Assembly (NCBI RefSeq): GCF_000263195.1
Contig: NC_018748.1
Span: 1,674,001 to 1,738,000 of the forward strand
DNA from: Emticicia oligotrophica DSM 17448
GTDB taxonomy: Bacteria > Bacteroidota > Bacteroidia > Cytophagales > Spirosomataceae
Length of the DNA: 64,000 bases
Direction: 5' to 3'
Of the stretch, positions 31,099 to 34,203 are shown piece by piece. A model generated the notes under the pieces. That model was not told the DNA's origin. It made no database searches and saw only the letters and a program-made list of their open reading frames with translations. Every line of letters starts with the position of its first letter. Position 1 is the stretch's first letter. The position numbers were made by a program, and so were the translations under genes.

Positions 31099-32550
31099 TT
31101 ACTCTACCTTACTTAATTTCACAGTATTCGTAAGGTTATTATCTTGTAATGGTAAACTCAAAGTATTAATAAATAAATCTCCTTTTTGAAGTTCGCCTTC
31201 TGCAATCAAGAAATCTTTAATTGTATCTACCACTTCTTCAACGTTTTTGCCTTTCATTTCTTCAACCAAGAAAGTTTTTACGCCTGAGTAAAGACTCAAT
31301 TGTGTAGAAAGCTTTTCGTTATTTGTAAAAATGAATAAACTCGCTTTCGGGCGGTGGTGAGATAGACGGAATGCCGTATAACCAGAAGCCGTAATACCAA
31401 TGATAGCCTTCACTTTCAAGTCACGAGCTAAACGACAAGCAGTCATTACCACGTTATCGTTTTCTTTTTGGTCAGAAACATAATTATCTTCCGTTACACG
31501 TGTATGATGACGGAAATACAATTTCTTTTCATCAGCCAATTCTTCTACCTTCAAAATGGTATTTACCATTGTTTCTACGGCCAAAATTGGGTATTTACCC
31601 GATGCACTCTCTGCACTAAGCATTACAGCATCTGCACCATCAAGCACTGCATTGGCAACATCACCAACCTCAGCACGTGTTGGGCGTGGGCTATCAATCA
31701 TACTTTCAAGCATTTGGGTTGCCACAATAACTGGCTTAGCCGCCAAGTTTGACATCTCAACCAAACGCTTTTGAATCATTGGTACATCTTCCGATGGTAA
31801 TTCTACACCCAAATCTCCACGAGCAACCATGATACCATCACTGGCATTTACGATTGCTTCCATATTGGTGATAGCTTCTGGCTTCTCAACTTTGGCAATA
31901 ACCTTAGCTGATTTACCTTGTGCTTTGATATAACTTTTAATTTCTTCGATTTCCTCAGCCGTACGCACAAAAGAAAGAGCTACCCAATCAACATCATTTT
32001 CTAAACCAAACTTAAGGTCTTCCCAGTCTTTGTCTGTTACTGAAGGTTGAGAAATATTAGTATTCGGAAGGTTTACACCTTTCTTTTGCTTTAACAGACC
32101 GCCGTAAACAACCTCTGTGATTACATCAGTACCATCTTTTCCGATTACTTTTACTTCTAATTTACCATCATCCATCAAGATTCTTTCACCTACTTTTACA
32201 TCATTGTACATGCCTTTGTAAGGGGTACTCACTCTTTCGGCATTACCAACGATATCATCACTGGCGAATCTCAATTCATTTCCTGGGAAAATTTCAACTC
32301 CATCATTACCACTCTCCATCAAACCAATTCTGATTTTCGGACCTTGCAAATCTTGCAAGATGGCACATTTGAAGCCATGCTCTCTATTAATTTTACGAAT
32401 ACGGTCAATACGAATTTGGTGGTCGGCGTGCGTTCCATGTGAGAAGTTCAAACGGAAAACATTTACACCAGCTTTTGCCAATGCCAATAACATTTCTTCG
32501 CTTTCGGAAGCTGGTCCGACAGTTGCTACTATTTTGGTTTTTCTTTGCAT
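31099..32550 (-). CDS. pyk: Pyruvate kinase
   Basis: 483 residues, full-length. Starts RKTKIVATVGPASES, with the FRLNFSHG substrate loop, the KVEKPEAI catalytic Lys motif (IAKVEKPEAITNMEAIV), the MVARGDLGVELP signature and TQMLESMIDSPRPTRAEVGDVANAVLDGADAVMLS. It makes pyruvate and ATP from phosphoenolpyruvate. A single cytosolic gene with its own terminator. A CAAAAATA box at 32588-32595 gives a TATTTTTG -7 element on the minus strand, without a clear partner box. Confidence 0.97.
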   Translation of the reverse strand: MQRKTKIVATVGPASESEEMLLALAKAGVNVFRLNFSHGTHADHQIRIDRIRKINREHGFKCAILQDLQGPKIRIGLMESGNDGVEIFPGNELRFASDDIVGNAERVSTPYKGMYNDVKVGERILMDDGKLEVKVIGKDGTDVITEVVYGGLLKQKKGVNLPNTNISQPSVTDKDWEDLKFGLENDVDWVALSFVRTAEEIEEIKSYIKAQGKSAKVIAKVEKPEAITNMEAIVNASDGIMVARGDLGVELPSEDVPMIQKRLVEMSNLAAKPVIVATQMLESMIDSPRPTRAEVGDVANAVLDGADAVMLSAESASGKYPILAVETMVNTILKVEELADEKKLYFRHHTRVTEDNYVSDQKENDNVVMTACRLARDLKVKAIIGITASGYTAFRLSHHRPKASLFIFTNNEKLSTQLSLYSGVKTFLVEEMKGKNVEEVVDTIKDFLIAEGELQKGDLFINTLSLPLQDNNLTNTVKLSKVE

Positions 32551-32839: not shown

Positions 32840-32870
32840 TTTGACAAAAAAAAATATTTACCTAAATTTG
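32840..32870 (+). promoter_or_regulatory. leuA leader promoter (exact Bacteroidota consensus)
   Basis: TTTG at 32840-32843, exactly 19 bases, then TAAATTTG at 32863-32870. Both boxes and the spacing match the consensus perfectly. The transcript would begin near 32876, about 18 bases before the leader peptide and 185 bases before leuA. Confidence 0.8.
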
Positions 32871-32893
32871 TATCAATAAAAAAACAAAAACCA

Positions 32894-32950
32894 TTGAATC
32901 ATTCGTCAATCGCAATTTCACTTCTCCTTCTACTCAACCAGTCGGTGTGA
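32894..32950 (+). CDS. Leucine-rich leader peptide of the leuA attenuator
   Basis: An 18-codon reading frame starting at TTG reads MNHSSIAISLLLLLNQSV and stops at TGA 32948-32950. Five consecutive leucine codons (CTT CTC CTT CTA CTC, 32921-32935) precede the stop by four codons. It lies between an exact promoter and a strong terminator just upstream of 2-isopropylmalate synthase, which makes leucine. The sense is that of classical ribosome-mediated attenuation: stalling at Leu codons when charged tRNA-Leu is scarce. No ATG is available in frame, so TTG initiation is inferred. The A-rich stretch before it suits Bacteroidota initiation. Confidence 0.75.
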   Translation: MNHSSIAISLLLLLNQSV

Positions 32951-33011
32951 GAAACGGAGACTTTGTATATACGAAAGCCCTTTCTTAACACATGTGAGAA
33001 AGGGCTTTTTT
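32945..33011 (+). promoter_or_regulatory. leuA transcription attenuator (antiterminator/terminator)
   Basis: The terminator stem is AAAGCCCTTTCT (32974-32985) with AGAAAGGGCTTT (32997-33008), 12 bp, then T-run. The 5' arm region TTTCTTAACAC (32981-32991) can instead pair with GTGTGAGAAA (32945-32954), which overlaps the leader stop codon. That segment repeats nine bases (TGTGAGAAA) of the terminator's own 3' arm at 32993-33001. A ribosome at the stop codon would cover 32945-32954 and let the terminator form; one stalled at the Leu codons would leave it free and allow readthrough. Confidence 0.75.
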
Positions 33012-33060
33012 GTGAATTGTTGACACAGTACTCACTTAACCAACATTAATCTCATTAGAA

Positions 33061-34203
33061 ATGAGCGAGAAAATTTATGTCTTTGACACTACTTTGCGAG
33101 ATGGCGAGCAAGTACCGGGTTGTCAGCTAACAACCGAGGAGAAAGTAATGATTGCTAAAGAACTCGAAAAGCTGGGTGTTGATATAATCGAAGCAGGATT
33201 TCCAGTATCGAGTCCTGGCGATTTTCGTTCGGTTGTAGAGGTTGCTAAAGCCGTTACCGAGCCAACAGTCTGTGCATTATCGCGTGCTGTAAAAGGCGAT
33301 ATCGATGCCGCTGGCGAAGCTCTAAAAGTAGCAAAACGCCCTCGTATTCATACGGGAATTGGAGCATCTGACATCCACATCAAACATAAATTTAATAGTA
33401 GCCGTGAAGCAATTATCGAACAAGCGATTGACGCCGTGAAATATGCTCGAAACCTTGTGGATGATGTTGAATTCTACGCCGAAGATGCTGGTCGTGCTGA
33501 TTTAGAATTTTTGGCAAAGTTGACTGAAAGTGTTATCAAAGCAGGAGCTACCGTAGTGAACTTGCCTGACACAACAGGATATGTTTTACCAAACGATATG
33601 TACGACCGCATCAATTATTTGATGAATAATGTACCAAACGTTGACAAGGCGATTCTCTCGATGCACAACCACAATGATTTGGGTATGGCAACTGCCAATA
33701 CAATTGCCGGAATCAGAGCGGGAGCACGCCAAGTAGAGGTAACAATCAATGGTATTGGTGAAAGAGCTGGAAATACTTCATTGGAAGAGGTAGCCATGAT
33801 TTTGAAAGTTCATAAATCAATGGGTTACCATACTAATATCAATAGCGAAATGCTATTTCCGATGAGTAATTTGGTTTCGCAAACAATGCGTATGCCAGTA
33901 CAAGCCAATAAGGCTATTGTTGGACGCAACGCTTTTGCTCACTCGTCGGGGATTCACCAAGATGGTTTCTTGAAACATACCGATACTTACGAGATTATTA
34001 GCCCACAAGAAGTTGGTGTTCCGAAATCTTCAATCGTATTGACCGCTCGTAGTGGTCGCCACGCCTTGAAACACCGCCTCGAAATGTTAGGTTATAAGCT
34101 TGAAAAACCAGTTTTAGACGATACATATAAGCGTTTCCTAGACTTAGCCGACCAAATCAAAGAAGTAAATGATAAGGATTTGGTGAAGTTGATGAGAGCT
34201 TAA
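33061..34203 (+). CDS. leuA: 2-isopropylmalate synthase, short form without regulatory domain
   Basis: A 380-residue HMGL-like TIM barrel. Motifs are [12 protein letters not shown], the metal-binding [26 protein letters not shown] and [11 protein letters not shown]. It condenses acetyl-CoA with 2-oxoisovalerate, the first committed step to leucine. The usual C-terminal LeuA dimer domain that binds leucine (about 120-140 residues) is missing, since the protein ends soon after the linker region. Homocitrate or citramalate synthase is possible from motifs alone, but the Leu-codon leader upstream strongly favours leucine synthesis. No leuB, C or D follows; the next gene is on the other strand. 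Confidence 0.88.

Follow-up and report, generated by a model that had tools for sequence, protein, structure and literature searches.

A probable leader-peptide attenuator upstream of leuA in Emticicia oligotrophica and its occurrence in Spirosomaceae

The region upstream of leuA in Emticicia oligotrophica DSM 17448 very probably functions as a ribosome-mediated (leader-peptide) transcription attenuator, which sets leuA expression according to the supply of charged leucyl-tRNA. The evidence comprises the anatomy of the region, its conservation, compensatory changes in a protector helix and modelled switching, and from these we infer the transcription start, the translation of the leader and the response to leucine. 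The window, that is, the whole stretch of 64,000 nucleotides that was analyzed, is taken from a genome of 5.2 Mb, and the relevant features are located as follows.

31099-32550, minus strand: pyruvate kinase gene, the divergent neighbour upstream of leuA (gene layout and family match).
32841-32870, plus strand: putative promoter, with TTGACA at 32841-32846 and the Bacteroidota -7 box TAAATTTG at 32863-32870 (sequence, consensus match).
32894-32950, plus strand: predicted leader frame with a TTG start and 18 codons followed by TGA (32948-32950), LNHSSIAISLLLLLNQSV (sequence).
32921-32935, plus strand: control codons CTT CTC CTT CTA CTC, five Leu (sequence).
32923-32960, plus strand: protector helix (segments 1:2), 32923-32927 with 32956-32960 and 32933-32939 with 32944-32951 (minimum free energy fold).
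32944-32957, plus strand: antiterminator 5' strand (segment 2), lying over the leader stop codon, with its partner at approximately 32979-32991 (folding).
32976-33011, plus strand: intrinsic terminator, stem 32976-32988 with 32994-33006 and a T run at 33006-33011 (sequence, folding).
33061-34203, plus strand: leuA, 2-isopropylmalate synthase, 380 aa (NF002086, 595.3 bits against a cut-off of 532).

In the proposed mechanism, transcription would start near 32875 and a ribosome would initiate the leader at the TTG at 32894. When leucine is ample, the ribosome would reach the stop codon and cover 32944-32957, which would allow the terminator to form and end transcription before leuA. When leucine is scarce, the ribosome would stall within the five Leu codons and the protector strand would stay open, such that 32944-32957 could pair with the 5' arm of the terminator and permit readthrough into leuA. 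An untranslated leader would leave 32944-32957 held in the protector helix, and the terminator would again form.

The product of leuA matches a curated 2-isopropylmalate synthase family (NCBIfam NF002086) above its cut-off, whereas TIGR00973 scores 560.7 bits, below its cut-off of 598.7, because the match ends at position 376 of 494. In the Pfam search, the protein contains the HMGL-like and HCS_D2 (post-HMGL) domains and no LeuA_dimer allosteric domain (PF08502), in keeping with its initial description, made from the sequence only, as a short 2-isopropylmalate synthase. A 519-residue leuA paralogue (L112:2773-4332) located approximately 49 kb from leuA does possess the LeuA_dimer domain and clusters with leuC, leuD and leuB, each of which scores above its family cut-off; the best family match of this paralogue is CimA (citramalate synthase), at 677.9 bits and below the cut-off of 950. 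In the same genome, a frame at L112:6523-6930 with a weak likeness to REP-associated tyrosine transposases (22.7 bits against a cut-off of 80) ends 16 nt 5' of the leuC start, and therefore the leuC cluster may have been deprived of its own upstream region.

The -7 consensus of Bacteroidota, TAnnTTTG (as given in the available portions of PMC9723704 and PMC7366714), is fitted by TAAATTTG at 32863-32870, and in the gap that separates leuA from the pyruvate kinase gene this box is the sole plus-strand occurrence of TANNTTTG. The box is retained in the Emticicia relatives compared. The promoter had been called exact in the sequence-only reading, which holds for TTGACA in the window species but not for the relatives, where the hexamer differs (e.g., TTGTGT and TTGTCT). 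According to the accessible text of PMC9723704, the -7 box of Flavobacterium psychrophilum is located at -12 to -5 from the start, and by analogy with this spacing transcription probably starts near 32875, which would give a 5' untranslated part of approximately 19 nt. A second promoter between the leader and leuA was considered and rejected, as TANNTTTG does not occur in that interval. A start downstream of the leader had been named beforehand as the outcome that would speak against attenuation; no sigma-A-type -7 box is present from the leader to leuA, which agrees with the upstream start that we infer. The consensus scans were given no weight because the sigma-70 promoter matches are close to chance (a score of 10 of 12 for the promoter; eight matches in the region against 8.1 expected) and the terminator at 32976-33011 was overlooked.

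All five codons of the leader run are CTN codons. In window ORFs of at least 250 aa, by comparison, CTN makes up 606 of 1542 Leu codons, and CTC and CTA account for 8.3% and 8.0%, respectively. The 18-codon leader with five consecutive Leu codons, including the uncommon CTC and CTA, is present as originally described. Runs of at least four Leu codons occur 17 times in short frames of the window, and a terminator follows none but those in this leader; the combination was found in none of 40 dinucleotide-shuffled windows. The start codon is TTG and not ATG, which was counted against the attenuator reading. Additionally, no codon-position bias is detected among the nine genus leaders, in which the variable sites are distributed 7, 7 and 8 over the three positions, so that this test provides no evidence of coding for the leader. 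A degenerate look-alike (TTCGTCAATCGCAATTTCAC, 32902-32921) of a palindromic element described below lies within the leader frame of the window species, whereas in other genera the element precedes an ATG start, and the leader start in the window species may have been relocated relative to these genera.

The leader RNA folds more stably than expected by chance (z = -4.0). The strand carrying the Leu codons pairs with segment 32944-32957 to form the protector helix, and the same segment, which overlaps the stop codon and duplicates nine bases (TGTGAGAAA) of the 3' arm of the terminator, can alternatively pair with the 5' arm, as had been described for the competing segment at the outset. The resulting antiterminator hairpin has a predicted stability of -12.3 kcal/mol (z = -2.6) and requires a bulge in the window's own sequence. 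The terminator between the leader and leuA reaches approximately -19.7 kcal/mol, and in the alignment register the stem of the window species has the reported 12 bp without interruption, followed by the T run. The possibility that this terminator ends the transcript of the upstream gene was rejected: the pyruvate kinase gene is transcribed divergently, and its transcript therefore cannot end at a plus-strand terminator between the two genes.

Equilibrium folding of the truncated RNA, a model that does not describe kinetics, was performed on the leader up to the terminator loop, with the ribosome represented by a mask extending 15 nt in both directions from the first base of the P-site codon. 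For the window species, the predicted sequestration of the terminator 5' arm is 0.15 without a ribosome, 0.83 with a ribosome stalled at the Leu codons and 0.17 with a ribosome at the stop codon. Sequestration upon stalling exceeds that at the stop codon by more than 0.2 in 69 of 74 leaders, compared with 19.8 of 74 (sd 2.6, maximum 25; 20 replicates) when the stop region is shuffled. With a mask of 12 nt, 67 leaders switch by this measure, and with one of 17 nt, 68 do. The protector state, in which the stalled value exceeds the untranslated value by more than 0.2, is obtained in only 26 of the 74 leaders; the three-state form is therefore attributed to the window species and some others, and many relatives seem, in the folding model, to use a two-state form without a protector. 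In four leaders of the genus (L008, L009, L010 and L012) and in L011, antitermination is predicted even without a ribosome (0.72-0.90).

Six Emticicia records, with a LeuA identity of 86-94%, are the closest named relatives by this protein; a seventh record named Emticicia (L042) shows 79% identity and falls into another genus group (g23), which has no leader. Nine leaders of the genus and one of a neighbouring genus retain ATTGA, the Leu run, the stop codon and the terminator. The ATTGA start context is unchanged in all ten aligned leaders, and the positions of the Leu run (L001 and L004-L012) hold Leu in 49 of 50 cases and Ile in one (L006). L011 was left out of alignment A3 owing to a three-base insertion, and in the nine aligned sequences the protector helix is paired in 108 of 108 cells. 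Two of its pairs are altered on both sides within the genus (C-G to A-U and C-G to U-A). The covariation score of the helix is matched by none of 500 column shuffles, and a count of two such pairs is reached in 44 of 500, in a control that ignores relatedness. For the antiterminator, one fixed register leaves 89.5% of cells paired, and 48 of 500 shuffles equal or surpass its covariation score. The terminator is found in all nine aligned genus leaders, and its core is invariant, such that it exhibits no covariation within the genus. The conservation of the Leu codons and of the alternative pairing that had been proposed for inspection in relatives is thereby observed, and the compensatory changes anticipated for the stems are seen in two pairs of the protector helix but not in the terminator.

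The element extends beyond the genus. Among the 200 Spirosomaceae genomes searched, 194 contain leuA; removal of duplicates and of upstreams shorter than 200 nt reduced the collection from 189 to 161, and 118 family upstreams were examined, with L105 (a stray contig) excluded before the leader-frame and shuffle counts and L003 (only 88 nt of upstream) before the family count. A leader was scored when a terminator of -7 kcal/mol or lower was located within 260 nt and a frame of 10-25 codons with at least two Leu ended 20-40 nt before it. By this rule, a Leu-bearing leader with a terminator precedes leuA in at least 74 of the 118 Spirosomaceae genomes, in 18 of 33 genera, and this is a lower bound because the rule misses at least two leaders visible by eye (L144 and L189), which belong to the 44 upstreams that do not satisfy it. 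In some of these 44, leuA seems by eye to follow a leuB-like frame or to come immediately after the palindromic element.

Outside the genus, 57 upstreams were selected for having a terminator, and in all of them an ATG frame of 10-25 codons stops 20-40 nt short of it; 100 shuffles gave 5.7 such cases of 57 on average (sd 2.1, maximum 11). Leucine accounts for 26.8% of the residues in these leaders, against 10.8%, which is the strongest enrichment among the 20 amino acids, and all six Leu codons occur. Apart from the Leu positions, the peptides vary widely between genera, as illustrated by MANYLINRQNLLLLFTYS, MKPIAQNLILLLLTTS and MNALALNLNLLNLLIP. The alternative pairing in relatives takes place at the leader stop codon or immediately beyond it, and in 57 of 68 cases no more than 5% of shuffles equal the duplex formed with the terminator arm. 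The attenuator logic, with the exception of the protector step, is therefore found in many other Spirosomaceae genera. In the upstreams from other Cytophagales, a terminator is present in 4 of 30 and a leader by the length and distance rule in 2 of 30, both from one family; most outgroups, with short or long LeuA alike, have no leader. In the one family with these two leaders, a second Cytophagales family besides Spirosomaceae, a Leu-bearing leader 20-23 nt before a differently built terminator is visible by eye in 8 of 19 upstreams (L224, L225, L279-L281, L283, L286 and L288).

Leaders of the same kind precede two further biosynthetic genes. In the genome of the window species, ilvD (C5, upstream of 1763633) is preceded by the leader MIYTSLVVLIIIILLV and trpE (C5, upstream of 2119727) by the leader MTQYSNIVKFWWWRPAK, each followed by a terminator. 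Ile/Val/Leu-rich leaders before ilvD are present in 11 of 11 genus genomes, and a Trp-Trp-Trp leader ahead of trpE is likewise present in 11 of 11 (L259 and L289-L298), lying directly before trpE in seven and before a small frame of approximately 108-136 residues in four (L295-L298). No leader is recognized by eye at hisG, pheA, the second dehydratase gene or the homoserine dehydrogenase gene, and the ilvD and trpE leader loci give no Rfam match at the gathering score. For each of leuA, ilvD and trpE, the codons of the leader correspond to the pathway of the gene, which is the strongest argument for amino-acid sensing.

The palindromic element, WCGC-N5-GCGAA-N2-TTCGC, has one match per genome in 11 of 14 genomes and none in three, and a reversed-pattern control yields one match over the 14 genomes. 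The copy in the genome of the window species is located at C5:1763361-1763381. In 10 of 11 cases (L263-L273, the exception being L263), the element lies just before the leader or gene of ilvD or leuA; the full element precedes ilvD in 11 of 11 genus genomes, and its core occurs in 54 of the 74 family leuA leaders, compared with 7 of the 44 upstreams without a detected leader. Judged by its sequence and placement, the element is possibly an operator of a branched-chain amino-acid regulator.

Several other explanations bear on the same observations. The Leu run could be a by-product of a pyrimidine-rich pairing strand, the RNA then being a constitutive partial terminator or responding to some other signal. 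The five CTN codons, which lie partly inside the protector helix, and the even variation over codon positions are compatible with this explanation, which is nevertheless very improbable, as leucine is enriched in the 57 other leaders with all six of its codons used and, within the genus, the leaders of ilvD and trpE bear Ile/Val/Leu and Trp runs instead. It is slightly less probable still that nascent-peptide arrest or a small-molecule ligand, as in a riboswitch or T-box, and not charged tRNA, provides the signal. The leader peptide shares its hydrophobic character with some arrest peptides, and the leader fold is stronger than chance, but the peptides differ widely between genera outside the Leu positions and no Rfam riboswitch or T-box is found in the window at the gathering score.

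A riboswitch, a T-box or a known Rfam leader was rejected because the Rfam matches are far below the gathering scores: among the weak matches (E up to 10), which were taken as chance, the best is RsaJ (E 0.0012, 22.7 bits against 100), and others are the PyrR site (20.1 against 54) and Thr_leader (18.2 bits against 55), with no T-box match for the leader at E up to 10. The least probable explanation, close to negligible, is that a gene for a trans-acting small RNA with its own terminator lies before leuA by chance; a promoter, an RNA of approximately 135 nt and a terminator are indeed the layout of such a gene, but this layout is retained before leuA in 18 genera despite sequence change, and the alternative pairing involves bases at the leader stop codon or directly downstream of it. 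The attenuation logic of the E. coli leu and trp type, as recognized in the sequence-only reading, is instead supported by the conservation within the genus, the spread in the family and the compensatory changes in the protector helix.

The E. coli leu leader precedes leuABCD, and its attenuator consists of Leu codons, a terminator and a competing antiterminator and protector helix. The element described here resembles the enterobacterial leu attenuator (RF00512) in its Leu-codon run, its terminator before a leucine gene, its antiterminator and its protector helix; it differs in its TTG start, its 18 codons, the lone short leuA that it precedes and the lack of a covariance-model match, as Rfam Leu_leader (RF00512) gives no match at the gathering score or at E up to 10. 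The element would work like the E. coli leu attenuator, yet it is outside the Rfam Leu_leader family. The E. coli ilvGMEDA and trp leaders represent further leader-peptide attenuator types, to which the Ile/Val/Leu leader of ilvD and the Trp-Trp-Trp leader of trpE, with their terminators, are similar; unlike these types, the two leaders are known here from sequence alone and have no Rfam match at the gathering score.

Among the open-licence papers listed, no publication on a leucine attenuator in Bacteroidota was found, and the mechanism is mentioned only briefly for the phylum. Going by its title, Lopatovskaya et al. 2010 (Mol Biol), which is cited in PMC4833913, may already contain such predictions for Bacteroidetes. 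Flavobacterium psychrophilum belongs to a different class of Bacteroidota. The available sections of a report on this species describe 'strong clues' for leader-peptide attenuation before amino-acid operons, as well as structured 5' elements before pheA and hisG (PMC9723704). The leaders reported there share with the present one the phylum and the position of a leader peptide before amino-acid biosynthesis operons, whereas no leucine leader is named in those sections (PMC9723704). Leader-like frames are also mentioned in Bacteroides in the accessible part of PMC7366714. The initial statement that attenuation of this sort has rarely been described for Bacteroidota holds only in part, given the flavobacterial 'strong clues' already published (PMC9723704, available sections).

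The excerpted text of PMC3766115 suggests that amino-acid attenuators may have originated in gamma-proteobacteria, with few transfers. A wider reading of the present data, which is plausible with the balance tilted slightly against it, is that leader-peptide attenuation of leuA, ilvD and trpE is lineage-wide and not borrowed from proteobacterial families, that it may replace leucine feedback, and that it is joined by a layer of regulation through the palindromic element. With no allosteric domain in the short LeuA, attenuation may take the place of leucine feedback inhibition. If the lineage-wide reading is true, ribosomes and RNA polymerase would be tightly coupled in a phylum whose translation initiation does not rely on Shine-Dalgarno pairing. 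The probable leuA attenuator in itself extends a textbook mechanism to a large phylum. In the available portion of a phylum-level classification of coupling, Bacteroidota are absent from the list of phyla with runaway transcription (PMC13323073). Attenuation needs a ribosome close behind the polymerase, and the leaders would thus be ready-made reporters of transcription-translation coupling in Bacteroidota; additionally, the conserved leaders could seed a new RNA family and better annotation of short frames.
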